Shown here: in pieces, positions 1,363 through 63,106 of the stretch
Layout: the number at the start of each line of letters is the position of its first letter
Numbering within the stretch: the first letter of the stretch is position 1
Assembly (NCBI GenBank): GCA_002324875.1
Contig: NTJG01000009.1
Location: forward strand, 1-64,000
Direction of reading: 5' to 3'
Length of the DNA stretch: 64,000 nucleotides
Origin: Lysobacteraceae bacterium NML93-0793
Lineage (GTDB): Bacteria; Pseudomonadota; Gammaproteobacteria; Xanthomonadales; Xanthomonadaceae
The notes under the pieces: generated by a model
Databases searched by the model: none
The model's input: the letters and a program-made list of their open reading frames with translations, nothing else
What the model was told of the DNA's origin: nothing
Position numbers and translations under genes: made by a program

Positions 1363-4300
1363 ATGGAGATCGCGCGTTACGCCATCCGCCACCCGGTCAA
1401 TGTCTGGCTGCTGATCCTCGCCTGCCTGGTCGGCGGCGTGTTCGCCTATTTCAATCTCGAGCGGCTGGAAGACCCCGAGTTCACGATCAAGGAAGCGGTC
1501 GTGACCACGATCTACCCCGGCGCCAGCGCCGAACAGGTCGAGCGCGAAGTCAGCGACGTGCTCGAAAGCGCGGTCCAGCAGCTCACCCAGCTCAAGCAGG
1601 TGCGCACGACGTCGCGGCCCGGCTATTCCGAGCTGCGGGTGGAGATCCTCGAGCGCTATTCCAGCGAGGAGATTCCGCAGATCTGGGACGAGTTGCGGCG
1701 CAAGATCAACGACACCGCGCCCAGCCTGCCGCCCGGTGCGCAGGCACCGGTGGTCAACGACGATTTCGGCGATGTCTTCGGCCTGTACTACGCGATGACC
1801 GGCGACGGCCTCACCCGCACCGAGCTGCACGAGGCCGCCAAGACCCTGCGCCGCGGCTTGTTGCCGGTGGAGGGCGTGGGCAAGATCGAGATCGCCGGCG
1901 CGATCGAGGAACGGTTCGTCGTCGAGATTCCGCAGGCGCGCCTCGCCGCGCTGCGCATCGCGCCCGAGGAGATCGCCGGCGCACTGGCCGATGCGGAAAC
2001 CGAACTGCACGCCGGTGGGCTGCGCAGCGAGGACCTGTACCTGCGCGTCGCGCCCGGCGGCGCCTTCGATACGCTGCAGGCCCTGCGCACGTTGCCGGTG
2101 GGGCGCGGCGATGCGCGGGTGACCCTCGGCGACATCGCGCAGATCCGCCGCGAGTTCGCCGAGCGGCCGGCCCAGATCATCCGCCACGACGGGCGCGAGG
2201 CGCTGACCATCGGCGTCGCCGGCCTGCCGTCGGTGAACATCGTCGACGTGGGCAAGGCCGTCGACGCGGCCCTGGCGCGGCTCGAGCCGACCCTGCCGCT
2301 CGGCGTCGAACTGCATCCGGTCTACCAGCAGGCCGATGTCGTCGACGCGGCGGTCACCAGCTTTGCGATCAACGTGGCGATGTCGCTGGGCATCGTGATC
2401 GGCGTGCTGTGTCTGGTGATGGGCTGGCGCGCCGGCGTGATCATCGGCAGCGTGCTGCTGCTGACCGTCGGCGGCACGCTGCTGGCGATGTACCTGCTGG
2501 GCCTGCAGCTCGAACGCGTGTCGCTGGCGGCGCTGGTGATCGCGATGGGCATGCTGGTCGACAACGCCGTGGTGATCTGCGACGGCATGCAGGTGCGGCT
2601 GCGCCAGGGGCACTCGGCGATGCGCGCGGCGCGCGAGTCGGTCAGGCTGACGCAATGGTCGCTGCTCGGCGCGACCATCATCGGCATCCTCGCGTTCGCC
2701 GGCATCGGCCTGTCGCAGGACACCACCGGTGAATTCCTGTTCTCGCTGTTCTCGGTGATCCTGATCTCGCTGCTGCTCAGCTGGGTGCTGGCGATCACCG
2801 TGGTGCCGCTGCTGGGCTACTGGTGGCTGGCGTCGAAGGACGCGCGCGAGCGCGACGACGAAGACGGACGCGACGGCGACGGCGATGCGGGCGACAGCCC
2901 CTACCGGGGCAGGTTCTACGACCGCTTCCGCGGCGTGCTCGATGCGCGGCTCGGTCGCGCCGGCCTGACCGTGACCCTGGCGACACTGCTGACCATCGGC
3001 TGCGTCGTCGGATTCGGCTTCCTGCCGCAGTCGTTCTTTCCGCCCGCGTCCACGCCGATGGCCTTCGTCGACATCAACACCCGCCAGGGTAGCGACATCC
3101 GCGCCACCGACGCCGCGGTGCGCGAGGTCGAGGATTATCTGGCCGATGCGTTTCCCGAGGTGCGCAGCCGGGTCGCGTTCGTGGGGCAGGGCGCGTCGCG
3201 CTTCATGCTGACCTACGCGCCGGCGATGCCCGACAGCGCGTTCGCGCAGGTCATCCTGCTGGTCGACGATGCCGACGTGCTCGAGGACATGCTCACCCGG
3301 CTCAATCGCGAAGCCGGTGAGCGCTTCCCGGAACTGCGCGTGCACGCGGCGCGGCTGATGTTCGGCGGCGCGTCCGAGGCGCGCGTCGAGGCGCGCTTCA
3401 GCGGTCCCTCGGGCGAGACGCTGCGCGAGATCGCGGCGCGTGCCGAGGCCATTTTCCGCGACACGCCGATGCTCGAGAACGTGCACCACGACTGGGGCGA
3501 ACGCGAGCTCGTGCTGCGGCCGCGGCTGGATCTGCAGCGCATGGCCGAGGCCGGACTCGGCCGACAGGACATCGCCCAGGCGCTGACCATGGCCACCGAA
3601 GGCGTGCCGCTGGCGGTGCTGCGCGAGGGCGATGCGCAGCGCCAGGTGCTGCTGCGCGCGCCGGACGACGAGCGCCCTGCGCCGGAAGGCCTGCTCGATC
3701 GCCTCGCCTGGAGCGCGGGCGCGACGGCCTACGTCCCGATCGCCCAGGTGGCCGATCGCGTCGACGTGGTGCAGGAGGACGCCGCGATCCAGCGCCGCGA
3801 TCGCGTGCGCACCATCGCCGTGCAGGCCGAGCCGGTGGTCGGCGTGGAGGCGAGCGACGCCCATGCCGACATCCGCGAGGCGATCGAAGCCATGCCGCTG
3901 CCGCCCGGCTACACCCTGACCTGGGGCGGCGAATTCGAGAGTTCCGGCGATGCGCAGACGGCCCTGATGCGCACGCTGCTGCTGCCGTATCTGGGCATGA
4001 TCCTGGTGACCGTGCTGCTGTTTTCCCGCGTGCGCCAGCCGGTGGTGATCTGGCTGGTGGTGCCGATGTCGATCTGCGGCGTGACCATCGGGCTGGCGAT
4101 CTCCGGCCAGCCGTTCGGCTTCGTGGCGCTGCTCGGTCTGCTCAGCCTGACCGGCCTGCTGCTCAAGAACGCGATCGTGCTGGTGGAGGAGATCGACCGC
4201 CGGATGGCCGGAGGCGGCAATGGCCGCGCCGCGATCGTCGAAGCGACGACGAGCCGCCTGGTGCCGGTGACGATGGCGGCCGGCACCACGGTGCTGGGCA

Positions 4301-4467
4301 TGGTGCCGCTGCTGTTCGACGATCTGTTCGCATCGCTGGCCGTGACGATCATGGGCGGTCTGGCGTTCGCGACCGTGCTCACCCTGGTCGTCGTGCCGTG
4401 CCTGTACCTGCTGGTCTTCAAGGTGCCGCGCGACGACGACCGCAGGACCGAGGAGGCACGCGCATGA
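1363..4467 (+). CDS. RND efflux transporter permease (HAE1-type)
   Basis: This is the inner-membrane proton-driven pump of the RND superfamily, 1034 residues, the usual length. It has an N-terminal membrane segment (IRHPVNVWLLILACLVGGV), two large periplasmic porter regions, and two blocks of membrane spans around residues 330-500 and 860-1020. The TM4 signature reads GMLVDNAVVICDG, so the second Asp of the AcrB-type DD pair is Asn. The TM10-11 region has LLKNAIVLVEEIDRR. A strongly acidic, Gly-rich cytoplasmic insert (about residues 491-512, Asp/Glu/Arg rich) follows TM6. The gene lies between the adaptor and the outer-membrane lipoprotein, sharing an ATGA overlap with the latter. Drug or solvent export is likely; the substrate is unknown. 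Confidence 0.92.
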   Translation: MEIARYAIRHPVNVWLLILACLVGGVFAYFNLERLEDPEFTIKEAVVTTIYPGASAEQVEREVSDVLESAVQQLTQLKQVRTTSRPGYSELRVEILERYSSEEIPQIWDELRRKINDTAPSLPPGAQAPVVNDDFGDVFGLYYAMTGDGLTRTELHEAAKTLRRGLLPVEGVGKIEIAGAIEERFVVEIPQARLAALRIAPEEIAGALADAETELHAGGLRSEDLYLRVAPGGAFDTLQALRTLPVGRGDARVTLGDIAQIRREFAERPAQIIRHDGREALTIGVAGLPSVNIVDVGKAVDAALARLEPTLPLGVELHPVYQQADVVDAAVTSFAINVAMSLGIVIGVLCLVMGWRAGVIIGSVLLLTVGGTLLAMYLLGLQLERVSLAALVIAMGMLVDNAVVICDGMQVRLRQGHSAMRAARESVRLTQWSLLGATIIGILAFAGIGLSQDTTGEFLFSLFSVILISLLLSWVLAITVVPLLGYWWLASKDARERDDEDGRDGDGDAGDSPYRGRFYDRFRGVLDARLGRAGLTVTLATLLTIGCVVGFGFLPQSFFPPASTPMAFVDINTRQGSDIRATDAAVREVEDYLADAFPEVRSRVAFVGQGASRFMLTYAPAMPDSAFAQVILLVDDADVLEDMLTRLNREAGERFPELRVHAARLMFGGASEARVEARFSGPSGETLREIAARAEAIFRDTPMLENVHHDWGERELVLRPRLDLQRMAEAGLGRQDIAQALTMATEGVPLAVLREGDAQRQVLLRAPDDERPAPEGLLDRLAWSAGATAYVPIAQVADRVDVVQEDAAIQRRDRVRTIAVQAEPVVGVEASDAHADIREAIEAMPLPPGYTLTWGGEFESSGDAQTALMRTLLLPYLGMILVTVLLFSRVRQPVVIWLVVPMSICGVTIGLAISGQPFGFVALLGLLSLTGLLLKNAIVLVEEIDRRMAGGGNGRAAIVEATTSRLVPVTMAAGTTVLGMVPLLFDDLFASLAVTIMGGLAFATVLTLVVVPCLYLLVFKVPRDDDRRTEEARA

Positions 4468-5978
4468 AGATCTCCAGGCTCGGTGTCCTCGCGGCCGCGC
4501 TCGCGCTCGCCGCCTGCAGCACGCCGCCGGTGCGCGAGCGGCCGCCGCTGCCGGCGGCCTACTACGCGCCCGCGGGTGATGCCGCGCGGCCGGCCGATCC
4601 GGCGGCGCTCGCATACTGGTGGCGCCAGTTCGACGATCCGCTGCTGGCGGAACTGGTCGAGACCGCGCTGGTCCGCAATCTCGACCAGCAGGCGGCGCTG
4701 GCCCAGCTGCGCATCGCACGCGCGCAACTGCGGCAATCCCGCGCGGCGCTGCTGCCGCGGCTCGATCTCGGCGGTCAGGCCAGCCGCCAGATCATCAATA
4801 CCGATGCGCTGGCCGACACGCCGCTGGGCGAAGAATTCGATGTCGGCGGTGACGTCAATTTCGACACCTGGCAACTGGCGCTGCAGGCCGAGTGGGAAGT
4901 GGATCTGTTCGGCGCGAACCGGCTGCGCCGCGACGGGGCCGGGCGCCAGGTGCAATCGGCCGAGGCGCAGCTGGTGGCGGTGCGCCTGGGCGTCGCGTCC
5001 AATCTCGCGCAGGGCTACGTGCAGGCGCGCGCGCTGCTCGCCCAGCGTGCACTGCTCGACGAAGGCGTGCGCATCGCGCGCGAGGCCGAGCGTGTCGCCG
5101 ACGGGCGCTTCCGGCTGGGCGAGGTCACCCGCCTGGATGTGGAAGCCGCCGGCGCGCAGCGCGCGGCGCTCGAAGCGCAGCGCGGCGACATCGACGCCGG
5201 TCTCGCCGAAACCGCGTTCGCGCTGGATACGCTGATCGACCGGCCGCACGGAACGGTGCTACAGCGCCTGGGCGATGGCACGCGCGTGCCGATGGCCGAT
5301 GCCGGGATTCCGCGTGGCCAGCCGATGGATCTGTTGCGCCGGCGACCCGACGTCATCGCCGCGGTCGCCGGGCTGGAGGCCGCCGAACTGGCGGCGCTGG
5401 CCAGCCGCCGCGACCTGTTCCCCAAGCTGGGGGTCAGCGCGGCGCTCGGGCGCAGCGGGGTCGCGATCGGCGATCTGTCCGGCGCTTCGGACCTGCGCTC
5501 GCTCGCCGCGCAGCTCGGGTTTCCGTGGCTGGACTTCGGCGCCAGCCGCGCGGCGATCGATCTCGCCGACGCGCAGGCCGACGCCGGCTTCGTCGAGCTG
5601 CGCCAGGCGCTGGCCACCGCATTGCAGGAGGTCGAGACCGCGACCGCCCAGCTCGCCGCGCGCGGGGCGCAGCGCGCCGCCCGTGGGGAGGCGCTGTCAC
5701 GCGCCGAACGCACCCGGGCGATGGCCCGACGCACCTACGAGGTGGGCCTGGCCAACCTCGCCGACCTGCTCGATGCCGAGCGCGCATGGCTCGATGCACG
5801 CCAGCAGGCGCTCGACACCGAGCGCGCCGTCGCACTCGCACAGATCGCGCTCTACACCGCGCTGGGCGGTGGCTGGCGTGCGCCGGACGCCGCCGCGCCG
5901 CAGGAGGCCGCGGTACGCGACACCATCGAGTCCGTGCCCGATCGCATCCGCGCACCCGCGTCGCCCGCTGGCGATTGA
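4464..5978 (+). CDS. RND efflux outer-membrane lipoprotein (NodT/OprM family)
   Basis: This is the third component of the tripartite pump: a TolC-like outer-membrane channel of 504 residues. The ATG at 4464 overlaps the permease TGA (ATGA), which fixes the start, and the resulting N-terminus is a clean lipoprotein signal ending in lipobox LAAC (Cys18). The typical NodT layout follows: the YWWRQFDDPLLAELV motif near residue 55, the EWEVDLFG motif near residue 145, the RRRPDVIAA motif near 295, and long amphipathic helices in both halves. An open frame extends upstream to 4398 inside the permease gene but lacks any signal sequence. Confidence 0.93.
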   Translation: MKISRLGVLAAALALAACSTPPVRERPPLPAAYYAPAGDAARPADPAALAYWWRQFDDPLLAELVETALVRNLDQQAALAQLRIARAQLRQSRAALLPRLDLGGQASRQIINTDALADTPLGEEFDVGGDVNFDTWQLALQAEWEVDLFGANRLRRDGAGRQVQSAEAQLVAVRLGVASNLAQGYVQARALLAQRALLDEGVRIAREAERVADGRFRLGEVTRLDVEAAGAQRAALEAQRGDIDAGLAETAFALDTLIDRPHGTVLQRLGDGTRVPMADAGIPRGQPMDLLRRRPDVIAAVAGLEAAELAALASRRDLFPKLGVSAALGRSGVAIGDLSGASDLRSLAAQLGFPWLDFGASRAAIDLADAQADAGFVELRQALATALQEVETATAQLAARGAQRAARGEALSRAERTRAMARRTYEVGLANLADLLDAERAWLDARQQALDTERAVALAQIALYTALGGGWRAPDAAAPQEAAVRDTIESVPDRIRAPASPAGD

Positions 5979-7124: not shown

Positions 7125-8075
7125 GTGGTCACTCGTCGTGATGCCCTGAAACTCTCGCTCGGTGCCGGTCTGGCACTCGCCGCCCCCAAGTTCGCCTTCG
7201 CCGCGCCGGCCGGCGCCGCGATCACCCGCGCGATTCCATCCAGCGGCGAACGCCTGCCGGTGATCGGCCTGGGCAGTTCGGCCACGTTCTCGCGCGCCGC
7301 GGGCGACGATGCGGCGTCGCTGTCGGACGTGCTGCGCACCCTGATCAGCGAAGGCGGCAAGGTCTTCGACACCGCGCCGAGCTACGGCGAGTCCGAAGCC
7401 GTGGCCGGCCGCGCCGTGCAGCAACTCGGCATCGCCGACGAGGTGTTCTGGGCGACCAAGGTCAACGTCGCCGGCCGCGAGGCCGATGCCAAGGCCGATC
7501 CGGACCGCGCGCGTGCGCAGCTCGACACCTCGTTCGAGCGCCTCGGCCGCACCGCGATCGATCTGATCCAGGTGCACAACCTCGGCGACATTCCCACCCA
7601 GCTGGGCCTGCTCAAGGCGCTGAAGGCCGAGAAGCGCGTGCGCTACATCGGCGTCACGTCCACCAGCAAGCCGGCCTACCCGAAGCTGATCGAGACCATG
7701 CGCAACGAGCCGCTGGATTTCATCGGCGTCGACTATGCGGTCGACAACCGCGACGTCGAGGAGACCATCCTGCCGCTGGCCGCCGAACGCGGCATCGGCG
7801 TGCTGGTCTATGCGCCGTTCGGCCGTACCCGGCTGTGGCAGCGCGTCGCCGACCGGCCGGTGCCCGACTGGGCGCAGGATTTCGACGCGACCACCTGGGG
7901 CCAGTTCTTCCTCAAGTTCGTGGTCTCGCACCCGGCCGTGACCTGCGCCACCCCGGCCACCAGCCGCGTCGCCAATCTGGTCGACAATCTCGGCGCCGGC
8001 CGCGGACGCCTGCCCGATGCCGACCAGCGCCAGCGCATGATCGAACTGATCGACGGCCTGCCCGCGGCAAGCTGA
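7125..8075 (+). CDS. Tat-exported aldo/keto reductase
   Basis: A 316-residue NAD(P)H-dependent oxidoreductase of the aldo/keto reductase superfamily. The GTG start at 7125 follows an AGGAG at 7114-7118. The N-terminus carries a twin-arginine signal (TRRDALKLSLGAG, hydrophobic stretch, then AFAAPAGA), so the enzyme should be folded in the cytoplasm and exported by Tat. The catalytic tetrad is visible: Asp and Tyr in FDTAPSYGES, Lys in FWATKVN and His in LIQVHNLGD. The usual AKR C-terminal cofactor-binding stretch is shorter than in classic enzymes. It stands alone, and its substrate is unknown. Confidence 0.88.
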   Translation: MVTRRDALKLSLGAGLALAAPKFAFAAPAGAAITRAIPSSGERLPVIGLGSSATFSRAAGDDAASLSDVLRTLISEGGKVFDTAPSYGESEAVAGRAVQQLGIADEVFWATKVNVAGREADAKADPDRARAQLDTSFERLGRTAIDLIQVHNLGDIPTQLGLLKALKAEKRVRYIGVTSTSKPAYPKLIETMRNEPLDFIGVDYAVDNRDVEETILPLAAERGIGVLVYAPFGRTRLWQRVADRPVPDWAQDFDATTWGQFFLKFVVSHPAVTCATPATSRVANLVDNLGAGRGRLPDADQRQRMIELIDGLPAAS

Positions 8076-22297: not shown

Positions 22298-23682
22298 GCA
22301 CGTCGGTGGACGAGGCGACCTTGCTGCATGTTGATCTGATCGTGCTCGGAGGCGGCTCCGGCGGTCTCGCGGCGGCGTTCCGCGCGGCCGAGTACGGCCG
22401 GCGGGTCGCGCTCGTCGAACCCGGCGCGCTGGGCGGCACTTGCGTGAATGTCGGCTGCGTGCCGAAGAAGGCGATGTGGCTCGCGGCCGATCTGGGTGCG
22501 CGCATCGGTCAGGCCGCGCAGCTGGGCTTCGCACTGCCGGGCGAGGGCCGCGTCGCGTTCGACTGGCCCAAGTTCATCACCGACCGCCAGCGCTACATCC
22601 ACGGCATCCACGACAGCTACCGCAAGCGGCTCGATCGCGACGGGATCGTCGTGCTGCCCACGCGCGGACGCCTTGCGGGTCCGGGGCGGGTGGTCTGCGA
22701 CGACGGCACCTGCCTCGCCGCGCCGCACATCGTGCTGGCGACCGGCTCGGCGCCCCAGCGTCCGGACATCCCGGGCGCCGCGCTCGGCGCGGTGTCGGAT
22801 GATTTCTTCACCTGGTGCGCCGCGCCACCGCGCGTGGCGATGATCGGCGGCGGCTACATCGCCATCGAGCTGGCCGGCGTGCTGCAGGCGCTGGGCAGCC
22901 AGGTCGACGTCTTCGTGCGCGACCAGCGTCTGCTGCGCCAGGGCGATGCCGAGATCGTCGAGCAGTTGCAGGAAAACTACCGCCAGCAGGGCGTCGCGCT
23001 CGAATTCGGCTATGCGCTCAAGGCCCTGCACCGGGCCGACGACGGCCGCCTGCGGCTCGAAGCCGAGGACGGCAGCGTGCGCGACGGCTACGACCAGGTG
23101 CTGTTCGCGACCGGCCGCCGGCCCAACACCGGCGACATCGGCCTCGACACGGTGGGCATTACGCCGGATGCGGACGGCGACATTCCGGTCGACGAATGGC
23201 AGGCCCTGCCAGCGCCCGGTGTATACGCCGTCGGCGATATCTGCGGCTGCGGGCCGGCACTGACGCCGGTGGCGATCGCCGCGGCGCGCCGCCTGTGCGA
23301 CCGCCTGTTCGGCGGCAAGCCGGATGCGAAACTCGATGCCGGCAACGTGCCGTCGGTGGTGTTCTCGCATCCGCCGCTGGCGATGGTCGGGCTCACCGAG
23401 GCCGAGGCCCGCGCGCAGCACGGCGACGACGTGCACATCTATTGCAGCAACTTCCGCCCGATGCGCGAGGCGCTGGCGGAATCCAACCAGCGCAGTCTGT
23501 TCAAGCTGGTCTGCACCGGAGACGAGCGGCGGGTGGTAGGCCTTCATCTGCTCGGCGATGCGGCCGACGAGATCCTGCAGGGCTTCGCGGTCGCCCTCAA
23601 ACGCGGCATTACCCTCGACGACCTGCACGACACGATCGCCATCCACCCCACCAGCGCCGAAGAAGTGGTGCTGATGCGCTGA
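22294..23682 (+). CDS. gor: Glutathione-disulfide reductase
   Basis: A 462-residue NADPH-dependent flavoprotein disulfide reductase. The redox disulfide lies in GGTCVNVGCVPKKAMW, the FAD motif is LGGGSGGLAAAF, the NADPH motif is MIGGGYIAIELAGVL with the arginines VRDQRLLR that favour NADPH, and the C-terminal interface motif is IAIHPTSAEE, supplying the catalytic His-Glu pair. These features fit glutathione reductase rather than lipoamide dehydrogenase or mercuric reductase. It overlaps the upstream flavoenzyme gene (ATGA). Confidence 0.92.
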   Translation: MSTSVDEATLLHVDLIVLGGGSGGLAAAFRAAEYGRRVALVEPGALGGTCVNVGCVPKKAMWLAADLGARIGQAAQLGFALPGEGRVAFDWPKFITDRQRYIHGIHDSYRKRLDRDGIVVLPTRGRLAGPGRVVCDDGTCLAAPHIVLATGSAPQRPDIPGAALGAVSDDFFTWCAAPPRVAMIGGGYIAIELAGVLQALGSQVDVFVRDQRLLRQGDAEIVEQLQENYRQQGVALEFGYALKALHRADDGRLRLEAEDGSVRDGYDQVLFATGRRPNTGDIGLDTVGITPDADGDIPVDEWQALPAPGVYAVGDICGCGPALTPVAIAAARRLCDRLFGGKPDAKLDAGNVPSVVFSHPPLAMVGLTEAEARAQHGDDVHIYCSNFRPMREALAESNQRSLFKLVCTGDERRVVGLHLLGDAADEILQGFAVALKRGITLDDLHDTIAIHPTSAEEVVLMR

Positions 23683-55543: not shown

Positions 55544-55705
55544 ATGGGTGCAGGACACGATCACGGGCTGGGCGAAGTCCAGCATGAGAAACCGTTGTGG
55601 TGGGCCTTCGGACTCACCGCCGCCTTCCTGGTCGCCGAGGTGGTGGGTGGCCTCGTCACCAACAGCTTGGCGCTGCTGTCCGACGCGGCTCACATGGCCA
55701 CCGAG
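55544..55705 (+). pseudogene. czcD: czcD-like CDF transporter, truncated by IS3 element
   Basis: The first 54 codons of a CzcD-type transporter remain: MGAGHDHGLGEVQHEKPLWW, then TM1 (FGLTAAFLVAEVVGGLVTNSLALLSDAAHM) with the HD-type metal site in LLSDAAHM. The frame then runs into the IS3 left end and continues with unrelated codons to 55816. The remaining 250 or so codons are not found downstream, so the 3' part was lost in a rearrangement. Confidence 0.87.
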
Positions 55706-55766
55706 GGTTCACCCCCGTTTTTACGGACACTTACGAGAAGGCCGATCGAGGCCATGAGGAGTGTTC

Positions 55767-56054
55767 ATGTCGAAGCGAAGGAAGTTCAGTGCAGAGTTCA
55801 AGCGTGGCGCGGTTGAGCAGGCGAGCCAGCCTGGCGTCAGCTGCGCTCAGGTGGCACGGGAGCTGGGGATCCGGGACACGCTGCTGACCCGCTGGAAGCG
55901 AGAGGCCCAGAGCCAAGGCAAGGTGGCCTTCGGCGGCACCGGCACGCCCCGGGATGAGGAACTCGCCCGCCTGAAGCGCGAGCTGGCCCGGGTGAAGAAG
56001 GAGCGGGATTTTTTAAGAGAAGCGGCGACGTTCTTTGCCAAGGGATCGTCCTGA
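55767..56054 (+). CDS. IS3-family transposase OrfA
   Basis: A 95-residue DNA-binding protein of the IS3 family with [43 protein letters not shown] and a C-terminal leucine-zipper-like helix ([26 protein letters not shown]). The stretch GATTTTTTAAG near its end could be the frameshift site for making OrfAB. The frame itself is intact, but its orfB partner is not. Confidence 0.85.
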
Positions 56055-56922
56055 GGTATCAGGCGATCGAACGTTGCCGCGATGAGTTCCCGGTTCGGCT
56101 GATGTGCCGCTGCCTGCGGGTCTCGGCCAGTGGTTACTACGACTGGAGCAAGCGCCTGCCAAGCACCCGCCAGCTCGACAACGAGCGCTTGCTCGACCGC
56201 ATCCGTGAGCTGCATGAAGACAGCCGGGGCACGCTGGGCGCCGGTCGGATGCAGGAAGATCTGGCCGATGCCGGCGAACCCGTCAGCCTGAACCGGGTGG
56301 CGCGCCTGATGGCTGAAGATGGCCTGCAGGGCTGACCGCGGCCGAAGCGGCGTGGGCAGCGTGGCCGGCCCGCGCTGACGCCGCCGGGCGTGCGCAACCT
56401 GCTCGAACGGGACTTCACTGCGCTGGAGCCGGAGACCAAGTGGGTCACCGACATCACCGAACTCAAGACCGGCAGGGCAAGCTGTGCCTGTGCATCGTGC
56501 TGGACCTGTTCGACCAGCGCGTGGTGGGCTGGTCGATGCACCATCGGCAGGATCGGCAGATGGTGATCCGGGCCGTGCAGATGGCGGTCTGGCAGCGTCA
56601 GGGCAGCGACCCGGTGATCCTGCATTCCGATCGCGGCAGCCAGTTCCGGAGCGGCGACTACCAGCGTTACCTGGCGGCCAACGAACTGGTGTGCTCGATG
56701 AGCGCGGTGGGCCATTGCGGTGACAACGCGGCGTGCGAAGGCTTCTTCGGCCTGCTCAAGCGCGAGCGGGTCCACCGCATGACGTATCCGACACCCGATG
56801 CCGCCAGGGCTGATGTGTTCGAATACATCGAGCGGTTCCACAACCCGAGGATGCGGCGCAGGGTGGCCAGGAAAGACCGGAAGCTGTCAGCTCTTTTACA
56901 ACCGTCCGTGATTTCGGGGTAG
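56045..56922 (+). pseudogene. IS3-family transposase OrfB, broken by nonsense and frameshift
   Basis: The DDE integrase half is still readable: [43 protein letters not shown] (first Asp), VILHSDRGSQF (second Asp), and DNAACEGFFGLLKRE (Glu). It is interrupted by a TGA at 56333-56335 where TGG would continue the frame, and by a one-base deletion near 56473 (GGCAGGG where GGCGAGGG is expected). The final TAG lies inside the right inverted repeat. The protein cannot be made as one piece. Confidence 0.85.
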
Positions 56923-56928
56923 AACCCC

Positions 56929-57211
56929 GCGGTACGGATGGTGCTGGAGCATCAGGGCGAGCACGGATCGCAGTGGGCGGCGATTGTCTCGATCGCAGGC
57001 AAGGTAGGGTGCACGCCCGAGTCGCTGCGTCGCTGGGTCCGTCAGGCCGAGCGTGACCGCGGCTTGCGCAGCGGGCCGACTACCGACGAGCAGGCGCGGA
57101 TAAAGGCGTTGGAGCGGGAAGTACGCGAGCTGCGCCAGGCCAACGAGATCCTGCGCAAGGCGTCAGCGTATTTTGCCCCAGGCGGAGCTCGACCGCCGGT
57201 TCAAGCCATGA
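56929..57211 (+). pseudogene. Second IS3-family OrfA remnant
   Basis: A fragment of a different IS3 orfA starts abruptly at the right end of the first [47 protein letters not shown], then [26 protein letters not shown]. An extra C in TTTGCCCCAGG shifts the frame before the expected AELDRRFKP ending. No orfB follows. The N-terminal 20 or so codons are missing. Confidence 0.82.
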
Positions 57212-57253
57212 GAGGGTCGGCAGGGATTCGTGTAAAAACGGGCCGAAAGTGAG

Positions 57254-57679
57254 CTAACTGCCTGTCGCAGCTGGCTTTCTTGGCCGCTCCAGAAAATCGA
57301 GGGTTGGGCAGCACTCTCCCGCCGGCACTTGGGCGCACCGCGCTATCTTCTGTTCGAGATCCCTCTCCAGCTGTCGCAGCTCGCGGATTCGTAGACGGAC
57401 ATCGACGAGCTTTCGCTCGGTCAGCTGACGGGTCTGCTCGCAAGAACGTTCGCCTGTGATCTCTAGCAGGCCAGCGATCTCGTCGAGGCTGAATCCCATC
57501 ATCTGAGCGCGCCGGATGAACTGAAGCCGATTGACATCGTTTTCGTCGTAACGACGCACGCCTCCTATGGGTCGCTCGGGTTGACGCAGCAGCCTACGTC
57601 GCTGGTAGTAGCGCACGGTTTCGACGTGCACATCGGCCGCCGCCGCCAGCCGGCTGATCGTAAACGTGTTCGGACGCAC
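57254..57679 (-). CDS. merR: Mercuric resistance regulator MerR
   Basis: A 141-residue Hg(II)-sensing activator/repressor. HTH: FTISRLAAAADVHVETVRYYQRRRLLRQPERPIGGVRRYDENDVNRL. The three metal cysteines are Cys80 (RSCEQ), Cys115 (IARCAQ) and Cys123 or 124 (GECCPTL), matching the Cys82/117/126 set of Tn21 MerR. It is divergent from merT across a mer-type operator. Confidence 0.92.
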   Translation of the reverse strand: MRPNTFTISRLAAAADVHVETVRYYQRRRLLRQPERPIGGVRRYDENDVNRLQFIRRAQMMGFSLDEIAGLLEITGERSCEQTRQLTERKLVDVRLRIRELRQLERDLEQKIARCAQVPAGECCPTLDFLERPRKPAATGS

Positions 57680-57682
57680 GGC

Positions 57683-57714
57683 TTGACTCCGTACCTAGGT
57701 ACAGAGGCTAGTAT
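57683..57714 (+). promoter_or_regulatory. mer promoter/operator
   Basis: -35 TTGACT (57683-57688), dyad CCGTACCTAGGTACAGAG in the spacer (inner core GTACCTAGGTAC is a perfect palindrome) and -10 TAGTAT (57709-57714) at 20-bp spacing, or CTAGTA at 19. It closely follows the TTGACTCCGTAC beginning of the classic mer operator. The merT ATG is only seven bases after the -10. Confidence 0.87.
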
Positions 57715-57720
57715 GCTCTG

Positions 57721-58077
57721 ATGCAAACAACCCCGGCCAAATCGTCTGTTCCAGCCATCGTTGGCGCGAGCATCGCCGCCATTGGCGCATCGGTCTGCTG
57801 CGTCGTGCCGCTGGTGCTGGTCCTGCTGGGCATCAGTGGCGCCTGGATCGGCACCCTGACAGCTCTCGATCCCTTGAGGCCCTGGTTCAGCGCCGCCGCC
57901 GTACTGTCCTTGGCCGTGGCGTTTTGGATGCTGTATCGACCGGCGGCACGGTGCGGTGTGGATGGCAGTTGCATCGCCCCGGACGCTCTGCGACGCAGGC
58001 GACGTTGGCTCTGGTTGGCGACAGCCCTCATCGTCCTGTTGCTGCTGTTTCCCTATTACATCGTCTGGATTCTGTAG
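57721..58077 (+). CDS. merT: Mercuric ion transporter MerT
   Basis: A 118-residue inner-membrane Hg(II) importer with three spans. The first helix has the vicinal cysteine pair in AAIGASVCCVVPLVLVLLGISGAWIG; a second Cys pair lies in the cytoplasmic loop (AARCGVDGSCIAP). No ribosome-binding site can precede this ATG within a normal transcript, because the mer -10 ends at 57714. merP follows after 8 bp. Confidence 0.92.
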   Translation: MQTTPAKSSVPAIVGASIAAIGASVCCVVPLVLVLLGISGAWIGTLTALDPLRPWFSAAAVLSLAVAFWMLYRPAARCGVDGSCIAPDALRRRRRWLWLATALIVLLLLFPYYIVWIL

Positions 58078-58085
58078 GAGGCGCG

Positions 58086-58373
58086 ATGCACAAGTGGATA
58101 CTGGCCCTGGTGGCTGCTCTGTCGGTCGGTGCCGCTCTTGCGACGCCCGCAACCGTAGTGATGCTCGATGCTGAGAACATGACCTGTCCCGCCTGCGGCA
58201 TCACCATCAGGAAGGCGCTGGAGAAGGTGCCGGGCGTGGCCGATGTGAAGGTGGACACCCGGGCTGAAACAGTCACGGTGACGTTCGAATCGAGCCAGAC
58301 GGATGCAGCCGGAATCGCGCGTGCAGTCACGGAAGCAGGCTTCCCGGCCAAGGTGCGGACTCGCGGTGAGTGA
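58086..58373 (+). CDS. merP: Periplasmic mercury-binding protein MerP
   Basis: A 95-residue exported Hg(II) scavenger: signal peptide (LALVAALSVGAALATPA), then the heavy-metal-associated domain with the binding motif NMTCPACGITIRKAL and VDTRAETVTVTFESSQTD. It hands mercury to MerT. The Shine-Dalgarno TAGGAGG overlaps the merT stop. It overlaps the next small gene by eight bases. Confidence 0.92.
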   Translation: MHKWILALVAALSVGAALATPATVVMLDAENMTCPACGITIRKALEKVPGVADVKVDTRAETVTVTFESSQTDAAGIARAVTEAGFPAKVRTRGE

Positions 58374-58578
58374 CGTCAAGCTGGAAAGCGTCTTGACCTG
58401 CCCGGAGTGCGGCCATCGGGCGACCGAGACAATGCCCATCACAGCGTGTCAATTCTTCTATGAGTGCACGGGCTGTGGAGCGGTTTTGCGTCCGCATCAA
58501 GGCGACTGCTGTGTGTTCTGCTCGTTCGGAACAGTGCCATGTCCACCGATCCAACAGAACAATCCCTGTCGTGGTTGA
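58366..58578 (+). CDS. GDCCVxC domain protein (Cys form)
   Basis: A 70-residue Cys-rich protein coupled to merP (GTG start inside the merP end). It has one CPEC knuckle (LTCPECGHRATE), a CTGC pair (FFYECTGCGAVLRP), and the motif GDCCVFCSFGTVPCPP that names the family of GDCCVxC proteins, some of which use selenocysteine; here all positions are Cys codons. Ten cysteines in 70 residues predict a metal-binding, probably mercury-handling, domain. Function not established. Confidence 0.8.
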   Translation: MSDVKLESVLTCPECGHRATETMPITACQFFYECTGCGAVLRPHQGDCCVFCSFGTVPCPPIQQNNPCRG

Positions 58579-59872
58579 ACCGCGGACTCCGATAATAGTT
58601 GGACAGACAGGCTGCGAGATCGACTGTGCCACCCTGGAAAGCGCGCCGCTCAACCAGCGGTGTGCATGCGAAGTGGTCGACATCCTCCGTCTGCACGAGT
58701 CGATCCGGGGTGCCTTTCCGGAGTTCACGACTGATCCCGCCGTACACGCGCACTTATTTTCACCTTATGCCTTGTTCGTTGATCGGCCCGCGTTGGAGGC
58801 CATGGGACGAGTCGCGGCGGCGGTCTTCGACGTCGCAGGAAACCCGGGATATAGCCAACGGGTCCTGCAATGGGCCCCTGACATTGCAACCCATGATCCG
58901 GGTTCTGCGGGGGGCGTCCTGGGTCTGGACTTTCACCTGACGGTCGATGGGCCGCGGCTGATCGAGGTCAACACCAATCCAGGCGGTCTGCTCCTCAATG
59001 CCTTGTTGCTCGATGCCGTGCGGTCTTGCGCGCCGCCAGCATGGGCCACCTGGACCAACGCGGCCCAAGCGCGTGATGCGGCCGTCACGGCCTGGATGGA
59101 GGATGCTCGGCAGCAATCCGGGCGCACGCCGTCGCGCCTGGCCATCGTGGACAGCACTCCGCGAGCGCAGTTCCTTTACCCCGAGTTTGAGCTGTACGCG
59201 AACGCGTTTCGGGACCATGGCGTGGACTGCGTGATCAGCGATCCCGAGGATTTGTCGTTTGGTTCGGACGGGCTTGAGGATGCCCGCGGTCGAATCGACA
59301 CTGTCTACAACCGGTTGACCGATTTCGCGCTCGAGGATACCTCGCATGCAGACATTCGTGAGGCTTACCTGGCAGGGGACGTCGCGCTGATGCCGCATCC
59401 CCGAGCACACGCGCTGTTTGCCGACAAGCGCAACCTGGCGGTGCTTGGAGACGCGGCTTTGCTCGGCGGGTTCGGGGTCGATGCGGGTTTGACAGCCCTG
59501 CTGGCCGAGGTGATCCCGACAACGGTTGAAGTCGTCCCCGGAAACCGGGATGCGCTGTGGGCAGCGCGCAACGGCTACTTCTTCAAGCCTGCAGCAGGGT
59601 TCGGCAGCCGTGGCAGCTATCGGGGCGACAAGCTCACCCGGCGAACGTGGGAGTCGATGGCGTCGGCGACCTACATCGCACAGGCCTTCGCGCCACCGAG
59701 CATGCGGATCGTGCATGGGGGCCAGTCCCTCAAGGCGGACGTGCGCTGCTTCGCGTCCGAGGCGGGTGTGCTGTTGTTCGCGGCCCGGCTTTATCAGGGC
59801 CAGACTACGAACATGCGCACCCCAGGTGGTGGATTCGCAGCGGTGCTCACGACGCCACTGATCGGCGAGTAA
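58571..59872 (+). CDS. Putative circularly permuted ATP-grasp ligase in the mer operon
   Basis: A 433-residue protein whose GTG start overlaps the previous stop. The ATP-grasp elements occur in a swapped order. The metal-binding end motif (GLDFHLTVDGPRLIEVNTNPGG, residues about 118-139) comes in the first third. The ATP-binding Lys and Gly-rich loop (FFKPAAGFGSRGSYRG, Lys339) and the ADVRCFASEAGVLLFAARLY strand come near the C-terminus. In between are PHPRAHALFADKRNLAVL and a region resembling the substrate domain. ATP-grasp enzymes join a carboxylate to an amine or thiol. The substrate is unknown; location suggests a thiol or peptide product linked to mercury defence. Confidence 0.6.
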   Translation: MVEPRTPIIVGQTGCEIDCATLESAPLNQRCACEVVDILRLHESIRGAFPEFTTDPAVHAHLFSPYALFVDRPALEAMGRVAAAVFDVAGNPGYSQRVLQWAPDIATHDPGSAGGVLGLDFHLTVDGPRLIEVNTNPGGLLLNALLLDAVRSCAPPAWATWTNAAQARDAAVTAWMEDARQQSGRTPSRLAIVDSTPRAQFLYPEFELYANAFRDHGVDCVISDPEDLSFGSDGLEDARGRIDTVYNRLTDFALEDTSHADIREAYLAGDVALMPHPRAHALFADKRNLAVLGDAALLGGFGVDAGLTALLAEVIPTTVEVVPGNRDALWAARNGYFFKPAAGFGSRGSYRGDKLTRRTWESMASATYIAQAFAPPSMRIVHGGQSLKADVRCFASEAGVLLFAARLYQGQTTNMRTPGGGFAAVLTTPLIGE

Positions 59873-59907
59873 TCCTGGCTGGGGCCGCCCTGGCGGTATG
59901 CCCTGGA

Positions 59908-61011
59908 CTACAGCCAGGCCAATGCTGATTCGGCCAGCTCGCGTTCCTCATCGATCGCGACGTTCCAGATGGCCGGCCCGCTCGCGGCATCGATCCGCGT
60001 GGCCCCAGCATCGTTGTCGTCAGGTGCCAGCGCCAGGCCAAGCCAGCCCAAGCGCGCGATGATCCGCGCCCGCAGACCCGGCGCGCGGTGGCCGATGCCG
60101 CCGGAAAAGACGACATGGTCGAGTCCGCCGATTCCCGTGGCCATGGCCGCGATGGACTGCGCGATCCGGACTGCGAAGAGGTCCACGGCAAGCTGGGCCT
60201 GCGGGCCAGGATCGGCAAGCAGCACGCGCATATCGCCGTGCCCGGCGATGCCGGCAAGACCTGCAGTGCGGGACAAACCATCTTCAATCGCTTGCGCGTC
60301 CAGCCGTTCGTGCCTGAGCAGGTACAGCAACGCACCGGGATCGAGATCCCCGGAGCGGGTAGGGCTCGGGATTCCCCCCAGCGGAGTGAGCGCCATGGTG
60401 GTGTCGCGGCTCCAACCGTCCTCGACGGCGCAGACGCTGCAACCACCCCCCAGATGCGCGAAGACGGCGCGGCTCCGCAGGATTCCGGCGTCCTGGCTGG
60501 CCACGACTCGCAGTGCAGAGGCGAAGGCGAGTCCGTGGAAACCGTAGCGGCGGACGCCCAGCGCATCCCATGCTTCGGGGATGGGCAGGCGCTGGCTCCA
60601 GGGTGCGAGTGTCACGTGGAAGTCCGTGTCGAAGGCCACGCCCTGGCGGGCTTGCGGCCAACGCAGGCGCGCGGCACGCGCGAACGCGAGGGCGACCGGC
60701 TGGTGCAAGGGTGCGAATGGCACCAAGGCATCCAGTTTCGCAAGTACATCTTCGTCGAGCTCGCTGGCGTTGCGCAGGTCGCCGCCATGTACGATTCGGT
60801 GGACCACCACGTCGGGGCCGGGCGCCGGTATCGACAATATTTCGAGCAGGGTGGCAAGTCGCTCTTGCGCATCCGCGCCGACGGCAATCTCGGCCCGGGA
60901 GCGCTCCACGACGCGTGGCTGCGCGCCTGGCCCCTCAGCGTGCAACAGATAGCACGCGCCCTTGAGGGTGGACGAGCCAACGTTGAGTGCCAGAAGCCGG
61001 CGCGTGGTCAT
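59908..61011 (-). CDS. Acetate kinase family protein (atypical)
   Basis: A 367-residue ASKHA-fold kinase related to AckA (about 400 residues), which makes ATP and acetate from acetyl phosphate. The framework is recognisable: LALNVGSSTLKG, VVHRIVHGG, RRYGFHGLAFA, HLGGGCSVCAVEDG, LGGIPSPTRSGDLDPG and VVFSGGIGHRAPGLR. Several positions differ from canonical AckA (HLGNGAS is HLGGGCS; GGIGEN is GGIGHR), so substrate or activity may differ. The ATG at 61011 was chosen for the family start. No phosphotransacetylase or phosphoketolase is in the window. Confidence 0.8.
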   Translation of the reverse strand: MTTRRLLALNVGSSTLKGACYLLHAEGPGAQPRVVERSRAEIAVGADAQERLATLLEILSIPAPGPDVVVHRIVHGGDLRNASELDEDVLAKLDALVPFAPLHQPVALAFARAARLRWPQARQGVAFDTDFHVTLAPWSQRLPIPEAWDALGVRRYGFHGLAFASALRVVASQDAGILRSRAVFAHLGGGCSVCAVEDGWSRDTTMALTPLGGIPSPTRSGDLDPGALLYLLRHERLDAQAIEDGLSRTAGLAGIAGHGDMRVLLADPGPQAQLAVDLFAVRIAQSIAAMATGIGGLDHVVFSGGIGHRAPGLRARIIARLGWLGLALAPDDNDAGATRIDAASGPAIWNVAIDEERELAESALAWL

Positions 61012-61030
61012 AGGTGTCGCCAGTTCATGT

Positions 61031-63106
61031 TCATGGGGACCGTACCGCCCGGCGCAACAGCTGCGCATTGATCGCCACCACGATGGTGCTCAGCGACATG
61101 AGCACTGCACCAAGCGCGGGTTGCAGCATGATCCCCCATGCAGAGAGAACGCCGGCAGCGAGCGGGATGGCGACGATGTTGTACCCGGCGGCCCACCACA
61201 GGTTCTGGATCATCTTGCGATAGGTGGCCTTGCTCAATTCGATGATCGCTGGCACGTCGCGCGGGTCGCTGCGCACGAGTACGACGTCGCCGGCCTCGAC
61301 CGCGACGTCCGTCCCTGTGCCGATGGCGATGCCGACGTCGGACGTGAGCAGCGCCGGAGCGTCATTGACACCGTCACCCACCATCGCGACGCGCTTGCCC
61401 TGGGCCTGCAGCTCCTCGATCTTTGCCACCTTGTCCTCGGGCAATACCTCGGCGAAGACGGTGTCGATGTTGAGTTCCTTCGCGACCGCGTTTGCGACCG
61501 CCGTGGAATCACCCGTCAGCAGGACAACCTCCAGTCCTTCGTCGTGCAGCCGCTTGACCGCGTCGAACGATTCGGGACGGATGGCATCCGCGATCGCAAA
61601 TACGGCGAGCACCCGGTCGCCTTCCACCAGGTAGGTTGCAGATTGACCATCGGCTGCCGCTGATTCGGCAGCCCGCCGAAGCGTCTCCGGCGGTTCGACC
61701 GCGAGCATTCTCAACAGACCCGGCCCGCCAACGTGAAGCGAGCGCTCCTCGACGACTGCGCGCACGCCGCGTCCCGGCATGGACTCGAAGTCCTGCGACA
61801 TCGGAACGTCGATGCCATGTTCCTTGGCGCTGGTCATCAGCGCCTGCGCGATCGGATGTTCAGCGTCGCGCTGGACCGACGCGGCCACGCGAAGCACCTC
61901 GTCGTCGGTGAGTCCATCGGCGGCAGTGGTCTTCACGACGCGGTGCGAACCGAGCGTGAGCGTGCCTGTCTTGTCGAACACGACCGTGTTCAGCAAACGG
62001 GCCTCTTCCAGGCCGCGTCGATCGCGCACGAGCAGGCCGTTCCGTGCGCCAATCGTGGTCGAGATGGCGGTCACCAGCGGGATGGCCAAACCCAGCGCAT
62101 GGGGACAGGCGATCACGAGCACGGTCACTACGCGCTCGATCGTGAAGCTCCACGGTCGACCGAGGAGTGGCCAGACAATGGCGGTAACCGCGGCGGAGAC
62201 GATGGCGATGATCGTGAGGTAGAACGCCGCCCGGTCCGCCAGGGCCTGGGCGCGCGAGCGCGACGTCTGGGCCTGCTCGACGAGCCGCATGATACCCGCG
62301 AGCGCGGTCTCGTCGCCGGTTCCCGTCACCTCGACACGCAACGAGCCCTGTCCGTTGACGGTGCCGGCGATCACCCGGTCGCCCGTCGACTTGTCCATCG
62401 GCTTGGACTCGCCGGTGATCATCGCTTCGTTGACGGCGCTGGTCCCTTCCTTCACGACGCCGTCGGCGGGAATGCTCGCGCCGGGCCTGATGAGCAGCAG
62501 GTCGCCGCGCTTCAGTTCCGCGACAGGGACTTCCTTCGCGGTACCGGCCTCATCCAACCGCACCGCCATATCAGGCAGCAGCTTCGCGAGTTCCTTGAGA
62601 GCGCCCTGTGCCTGGTTGATCGAACGCATCTCGATCCAGTGGCCGAGCAACATGATCGCCACCAGCGTCGCCAGCTCCCACCACAGGTCCAAGCCCTCGA
62701 CAACGCCGAGCGTGACCAACGCGCTGTAAAAGAAGGCGACGGTGATCGCAAGCGAGATCAGCGTCATCATGCCCGGCAGGCGATTTCTCAGCTCGTGGTA
62801 TCCGCCGCGGACGAACGGCGAGCCGCCGTAGAAGTACACGATCGTGCCGAACACCGCCGGGATGTACGCCGACCCCGGGAACTGTGGTGCGGTGTAGTCG
62901 AACCAATGCTGGATCATCCCGCTCCAGATCAGAGTGGGGATGGTCAGCAGCAGCGTGAGCCAGAACTTGTCGCGGAAGCTCGCCACGCTGTGGCCGGCGT
63001 GCTTGTCGTGCCCGGCATGGACGTCACCTTCAGCACCCGTGCGGGGATGCGGCGGTTGCTCGCCGTGCGCCTGATGATCTTGATGATGATGATTGTGTTG
63101 CGTCAT
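61031..63106 (-). CDS. copB: Copper/silver-exporting P-type ATPase (CopB-like)
   Basis: A 691-residue P1B-type ATPase. The N-terminus is His-rich (TQHNHHHQDHQAHGEQ, HAGHDKHAGH) in place of CXXC metal domains. The ion-path motif is CPH (VIACPHALGLAIPLV), typical of the CopB subgroup, and the catalytic motifs are TGES, DKTGTLT and MVGDGVNDAPAL. Eight membrane spans fit. Family members export Cu or Ag from the cytoplasm. The acetate-kinase-like gene starts 20 bp after its stop on the same strand. Confidence 0.92.
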   Translation of the reverse strand: MTQHNHHHQDHQAHGEQPPHPRTGAEGDVHAGHDKHAGHSVASFRDKFWLTLLLTIPTLIWSGMIQHWFDYTAPQFPGSAYIPAVFGTIVYFYGGSPFVRGGYHELRNRLPGMMTLISLAITVAFFYSALVTLGVVEGLDLWWELATLVAIMLLGHWIEMRSINQAQGALKELAKLLPDMAVRLDEAGTAKEVPVAELKRGDLLLIRPGASIPADGVVKEGTSAVNEAMITGESKPMDKSTGDRVIAGTVNGQGSLRVEVTGTGDETALAGIMRLVEQAQTSRSRAQALADRAAFYLTIIAIVSAAVTAIVWPLLGRPWSFTIERVVTVLVIACPHALGLAIPLVTAISTTIGARNGLLVRDRRGLEEARLLNTVVFDKTGTLTLGSHRVVKTTAADGLTDDEVLRVAASVQRDAEHPIAQALMTSAKEHGIDVPMSQDFESMPGRGVRAVVEERSLHVGGPGLLRMLAVEPPETLRRAAESAAADGQSATYLVEGDRVLAVFAIADAIRPESFDAVKRLHDEGLEVVLLTGDSTAVANAVAKELNIDTVFAEVLPEDKVAKIEELQAQGKRVAMVGDGVNDAPALLTSDVGIAIGTGTDVAVEAGDVVLVRSDPRDVPAIIELSKATYRKMIQNLWWAAGYNIVAIPLAAGVLSAWGIMLQPALGAVLMSLSTIVVAINAQLLRRAVRSP

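Follow-up and report, generated by a model that had tools for sequence, protein, structure and literature searches.

A predicted circularly permuted ATP-grasp ligase encoded in copper and mercury resistance islands

Introduction

The protein considered here, referred to as the ligase, is encoded next to mercury resistance (mer) genes in a 64,000-nucleotide stretch of Lysobacteraceae bacterium NML93-0793 (contig NTJG01000009.1, positions 1 to 64,000), the whole of which we call the window. Its closest described counterparts in fold are the enzymes of the YjfC, YgiC and glutathione synthetase group, which we take to be circularly permuted ATP-grasps. Eukaryotic glutathione and homoglutathione synthetases (2hgs, 3kal, 5oes) share 11–14% identity with the ligase over the alignment, and it differs from the eukaryotic glutathione synthetase in its N-terminal LNxxCxC, its island context and the lack of a Pfam match to that enzyme. 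From the glutathionylspermidine and trypanothione synthetases and from YgiC/YjfC it is set apart by having neither a match to PF03738 (presumably the accession of glutathionylspermidine synthetase) nor an amidase domain, and by its CxC motif and metal-island setting. It also lies below the cut-off of CP_ATPgrasp_2 (PF14403), the family to which we assume the solved "putative glutathionylspermidine synthase" 3n6x to belong, and the same genome encodes a separate PF14403 member. Cp1B (9cjn), the fungal ATP-grasp of the E-64 pathway, comes from a fungal natural-product cluster and thus from a different genomic setting. Like mer operons in general, the window has merR, an operator, merT and merP; unlike them, it adds genes for the ligase and for a GDCCVxC-domain protein, and merA is found neither in the operon nor above cut-off in the genome.

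The topology of the ligase is already known. The family has no name in Pfam or NCBIfam and, as far as open-licence literature and family databases show, neither it nor its association with copper and mercury islands has been described before. No title or abstract found among open-licence papers describes it, and the term "ATP-grasp" did not occur in the available part of PMC11195947.

Permuted motif order and predicted fold

The original prediction had read the ligase as a circularly permuted ATP-grasp from its motif order alone, and profile order and predicted fold now agree with that reading. EVNTNPG (residues 132–138) precedes KPAAGFGSRG, which starts at Lys339, and no second ExN end motif was found after KPAAGFGSRG in the ligase, both as proposed; this order is common to known permuted ATP-grasps. 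Against the family profile, the canonical ATPgrasp_ST profile matches in three pieces in the wrong order, of which only the first has weight alone, and residues 119–139 of the ligase align near the C-terminal end of ATPgrasp_ST. CP_ATPgrasp_2, in contrast, is collinear with the family profile, at a probability of 86.4 (E 4.7e-6) in hhalign with 6 sequences, rising to 95.6 (E 1.1e-8) with 30 sequences plus the sister branch described below. Rearranging the segments into canonical order gave a Pfam score no stronger than the native order, and at the profile level the rearranged alignment ran over 157 columns in one piece with a score of 46.6, compared with 46.7 for a 27-column piece alone; the case for permutation is therefore made by the fold and by how the pieces are ordered rather than by the score.

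Curated families name none of this. In Pfam the window protein has no curated match, the best being 12.4 bits to ATPgrasp_ST over residues 115–138 (cut-off 31.4), and in NCBIfam, scanned with the window protein and two sister proteins only, nothing came near a cut-off for it. A sequence search of the PDB gave no significant match. PF14403 does not match the window protein, and the best relative (L082) scores 31.3 bits, 0.7 below the cut-off of 32. No row of the eukaryotic-type glutathione synthetase families, whose Pfam names we take to be GSH_synth_ATP and GSH_synthase, appeared at E ≤ 1 for the window protein, and none of the 13 families listed across the 38 rows of A1, the alignment of the metal-island branch, is a glutathione synthetase family. 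PF03738 likewise matches neither the window protein nor any of these 38 rows.

An AlphaFold2 model built from a 38-row alignment reached a pLDDT of 89.2 and a pTM of 0.90 and shows an ATP-grasp fold, with the GLDFH and ExN motifs on strands 117–124 and 127–134. Residues 1–15 were modelled at low confidence, so that the exact start of the ligase is uncertain. In a second-look structure alignment the highest scores were those of YjfC (28.9; rmsd 3.2, 351 aligned) and YgiC (28.5), followed by homoglutathione synthetase (28.4), human glutathione synthetase (27.4), GspS (27.0), trypanothione synthetase (25.1), 3n6x (23.7) and Cp1B (23.1). The score then drops to 13.5 for 3k1t, and the canonical enzymes follow from LysX at 10.0 down, covering only model residues ~185 to 430 and mostly with their own first 210–260 residues. 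Permuted enzymes thus match the model over nearly its full length and canonical ones over half of it; a canonical topology, which the original prediction had named as counter-evidence, is not what the model shows. All of the best 50 of 742 Foldseek matches (E 2.1e-15 to 3.1e-10) belong to the YjfC/glutathione synthetase group and its nematode effector relatives.

Conservation of the active site

Relatives are encoded in 110 of 130 candidate stretches, from which 78 loci were retained. Conservation was read from 41 representatives, obtained by clustering 82 of 86 sequences at 85% identity after exclusion of the window itself (L003), a mis-extended sequence (L061) and two partial ones (L047, L081), and reaching down to ~37% identity with the window protein. 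Twelve residues are invariant in all 41 (E132, N134, N136, G138, G139, K286, K339, P340, K388, D390, R392 and R406), and the same active-site set is invariant in a 63-row alignment that includes the sister branch (four sister genes twice). The Lys and Gly-rich loop for ATP, the second Lys and the acidic and Asn Mg ligands typical of the superfamily are therefore conserved 41/41, which makes the motif arrangement more than chance; the ATP and Mg roles of K286, K339, D390, E132 and N134 are ones that we assume by analogy. The N-terminal CxC is present in 37 of the 38 rows of A1. Four relatives (L102, at 7270–7656, L104, L105 and L089) carry related C-terminal extensions of ~110–150 residues, and the extension of L102 matches nothing in Pfam or NCBIfam.

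The mer operon of the window

As the original prediction had it, the ligase is coupled to merT, merP and the GDCCVxC gene, behind an operator of MerR type (Table 1). Its GTG start (58571–58573) lies inside the end of the GDCCVxC open reading frame (ORF), whose TGA occupies 58576–58578, and the GTG start of GDCCVxC (58366) lies just ahead of the merP stop (58371–58373). The operator pattern, which we take from Tn501, has one exact match in the window and none in 100 shuffles; relaxed by one base it occurs in 33 of 244 loci, some of these loci being overlapping pieces. No plus-strand terminator-like site falls between the operator and the ligase start (three sites in all, 1.9 expected), so the ligase lies downstream of the operator with no such site intervening, and no sigma-70-type site was called in 57200–60000. 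The operon also lacks merA, as had been noted: the best MerA match in the genome reaches 325.7 bits (cut-off 454.45). One ORF scoring in that search (22333–23667) is a glutathione reductase by NF004776 (498.5 bits, cut-off 480), with 470.1 bits, below cut-off, against TIGR01421.

Table 1. Ligase, coding positions of its motifs and neighbouring features in the window
Feature	Position	Strand	Basis
merR regulator	57254..57679	-	PF13411 and PF09278 over cut-off; TIGR02051 137.7 bits, below cut-off 150.85
MerR-type operator TTGACT-CCGTAC-N4-GTAC, TTGACTCCGTACCTAGGTAC, between merR and merT	57683..57702	+	
merT, mercuric transport	57721..58077	+	PF02411 105.6 bits, cut-off 32.9; NF010314 99.2, below cut-off 150
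merP, Hg-binding HMA protein	58086..58373	+	PF00403 54.7 bits, cut-off 24.8; TIGR02052 70.8, below cut-off 92.55
GDCCVxC-domain protein	58366..58578	+	NF041374 103.5 bits, cut-off 40
Predicted circularly permuted ATP-grasp ligase, 433 aa, GTG start	58571..59872	+	Family alignment, AlphaFold2 model, fold matches
Codons of Cys31-x-Cys33, N-terminal CxC of the metal-island branch	58661..58669	+	C31 39/41, C33 40/41
Codons of residues 119–139, LDFHLTVDGPRLIEVNTNPGG; ATP-grasp fold end (E132, N134) relocated to the N-terminal half	58925..58987	+	
Codons of YNRLTDF (246–252)	59306..59326	+	Corresponds to Y-x-R-x-x-D of CP_ATPgrasp_2
Codons of residues 337–352, FFKPAAGFGSRGSYRG; putative ATP-binding Lys339 and Gly-rich loop	59579..59626	+	Role by analogy
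Codons of residues 388–421, KADVR ... RLYQGQTTNMRTPGG; putative catalytic C-terminal half	59732..59833	+	Role by analogy
Acetate/propionate-kinase family protein, convergent neighbour	59908..61068	-	Below curated cut-offs
Heavy-metal P-type ATPase, copper class	61031..63106	-	TIGR01511 582.6 bits, cut-off 397

The P-type ATPase also passes the cadmium model TIGR01512 (373.8 bits, cut-off 313.5), and the kinase gene follows it on the same strand, as if such pumps brought their own ATP supply. Just upstream of merR, at 55544–57252, the beginning of an ORF resembling a cation diffusion facilitator gives way, by eye, to IS3-type transposase-like ORFs, so that this transporter gene looks interrupted.

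Metal genes around the relatives

Mercury genes are not the constant partner of the ligase, and the original description of a mer-operon protein as such was not supported. Copper markers are found near 18 of 34 non-redundant relatives and mer markers near 4, copper being the main company of the divergent relatives, and a second copy of merR, operator, merT, merP and GDCCVxC in the same genome (L004/L245, contig C42) has no ligase. This second copy adjoins an ORF that resembles a Tn3-type transposase by eye. In seven loci encoding an 83–87% identical protein (L027, L028, L030–L034), no mer markers were found in the 6 kb upstream; L029, with almost no upstream sequence, was left out of this count. 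The usual neighbours in the Xanthomonadales loci that we drew out are the convergent acetate-kinase-family gene and the P-type ATPase, with exceptions such as L035, L037, L041, L042, L044 and L046, and mer is a variable upstream module in these loci.

Metal genes overall are near 22 of the 34 non-redundant loci, 14 of 25 divergent loci and 4 of 7 loci in a second sample, compared with 1/20 CP_ATPgrasp_2 loci, 3/18 random loci and 1/12 in the sister branch (25 divergent loci versus 38 controls, p = 1.4e-4). The metal markers were derived from the plasmid loci and the window, so their sensitivity may vary by lineage, and L163 was dropped as a duplicate of the plasmid L099 element (100% matches). 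A first tally (61/78 genome, 3/18 random and 19/19 plasmid loci) was set aside, since nearly identical loci are numerous in its genome set and its markers were drawn largely from plasmid loci.

Plasmid matches were found in 31 records, in 30 of which the gene is annotated as hypothetical and in one of which it has no feature. By their annotation, 15 of the 19 plasmid regions examined carry clear metal genes, three are unclear (L088, L099, L105) and one has none (L107). At least one of metal P-type ATPases, CopB, multicopper oxidases, copper-binding proteins and CueR is encoded in plasmid records of 11 taxa (Moraxella, Methylophaga, Polaromonas, Mesorhizobium, Sinorhizobium, Paracoccus, Rhizobium, Pseudomonas luteola, Janthinobacterium, Caulobacter and Croceicoccus), and on pMR68 of Pseudomonas sp. 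K-62 the ligase is accompanied by merT, a cation transporter gene, merF, merA and an alkylmercury lyase gene. A thiol pathway through the HFCD (CoaC/Dfp-like) flavoprotein encoded beside the ligase on pMR68 (L084:5239–5775) was considered and dropped, as the gene turned up at no other locus searched. In L082 the gene abutting the ligase is of the ArsR/SmtB type (57.3 bits, cut-off 55); L071 has a weaker ArsR match (47.6 bits, cut-off 55) just upstream of the ligase. In L056 the end of a ClpB-like ORF (by eye, 3350–5956) overlaps the called ligase ORF by 4 bases.

Across the phylum 128 of 398 genomes match, 15 at more than 450 bits and 113 at no more than 357.3 bits, as the sister branch does. 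CxC is missing ahead of the fold in 18 of 21 distinct sister genes examined, and in the other three (L133, L137 = L153, L158) it lies, by eye, only upstream of the likely start. In 4/4 loci of one family (L148–L151) the sister gene forms a tight operon with TIGR04283 and TIGR04282 genes, both named as arsenosugar glycosyltransferases, a link that we mention as a lead only. In seven loci of other families (L152–L155, L157–L159) it adjoins a related transporter gene; the one scanned, in L159, encodes an MFS transporter.

Discussion

Given the permuted order, the predicted fold, the conserved ATP and Mg residues, the operator and the metal-gene neighbourhood, we put a rough probability of 0.5 on the ligase being a catalytically complete permuted ATP-grasp amide ligase of copper and mercury islands that ligates a small thiol or peptide for metal protection. 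Binding of Hg(II) to MerR would turn on merT, merP, GDCCVxC and the ligase, which would spend ATP to activate, as an acyl phosphate, a carboxylate on a small thiol or peptide of the cytosol, be it glutathione or another. The phosphorylated carboxylate would then be joined to an amine, either an amino acid or a polyamine, and the product may bind or buffer metal arriving through MerT. In the metal-island branch the CxC and Cys153 are candidate binding sites for the metal or a thiol substrate, and the CxC fits either role. Thiol synthesis would fit the nearest folds, which include glutathione-type ligases; several of the closest matches, partly by their structure titles and otherwise as we assume, use an amine together with glutathione, gamma-Glu-Cys or a peptide. 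By eye, no thiol-pathway gene was recognised among the shared neighbours; with no supply gene recognised there either, a ready metabolite such as glutathione is the likeliest substrate, and a normal cell metabolite would require no other pathway gene.

Several observations weigh against this reading. The Foldseek superpositions are loose (rmsd 4.9–11.3), and the MerR, MerT, MerP and acetate-kinase-family proteins score below their NCBIfam cut-offs. No metal marker was found in 11 of the 25 divergent loci, and inspection by eye of the 45 neighbour clusters shared most widely revealed no gene for the supply of Cys, Glu-Cys or a polyamine. Other amides, too, are products of this fold group: in the available part of PMC12568646, Cp1B is part of a pathway to a cysteine-protease inhibitor, and in that of PMC12506659, YgiC is reported to lack glutathionylspermidine synthetase activity. 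Both cases caution against deducing the exact reaction from the fold. The islands also carry energy and stress genes, so their role may extend beyond metal. An acetate-kinase-family gene is near 8/34 relatives and 0/38 control loci (p = 0.0015), and phosphoketolase, PPK2, PpsA, ATP synthase, N-acetylglutaminylglutamine amidotransferase and universal stress protein genes occur nearby in single or few cases, as would be expected if the metal genes were fellow passengers of a wider stress and energy island whose ligase produces a peptide or compatible solute for purposes other than metal protection. We regard this as rather doubtful, as metal genes are the commoner neighbours, the kinase gene of the window neighbours the P-type ATPase gene on the strand opposite the ligase, and a MerR operator and an ArsR neighbour are present.

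A tentative possibility is a bacterial counterpart of phytochelatin-type protection in the copper and mercury islands of Pseudomonadota, in which a dedicated ligase resembling glutathione synthetase, with a CxC metal site of its own and induced by metal regulators, would produce a still undescribed peptide or thiol of low molecular weight that binds metal. That the ligase instead modifies proteins, adding an amino acid or short peptide to an island protein (GDCCVxC, MerP or a pump) in the manner of RimK or tubulin-tyrosine ligase and so tuning its metal binding, is unlikely: the full-length fold matches are small-molecule or peptide ligases, with substrates that we partly assume, and there is no constant partner protein, GDCCVxC being found in 25 of 78 loci. 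The collinear profile match and the near-threshold score of L082 would suit a diverged CP_ATPgrasp_2 protein that shares the function of the widespread genomic copies, but the window protein itself lacks the match, its genome has the separate PF14403 member (550.3 bits) and PF14403 loci have no metal context (1/20), all of which makes this very improbable. Least probable of all is a passenger gene with no resistance role, carried by mobile elements. The 31 plasmid records, the presence of the gene in 10 of 37 genomes of its own genus and the 95–98% identity across Luteimonas, Lysobacter and Stenotrophomonas records speak for mobility; the active site is nevertheless preserved in divergent members, to which the metal-gene linkage also extends (loci counted, not independent events).

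Few resistance loci have been studied as well as the mer and copper islands, yet a ligase with a complete active site sits in several of them as a "hypothetical protein". If its product does bind metal, biosynthesis would join transport, reduction and export as a layer of resistance, and that product could be sought directly.
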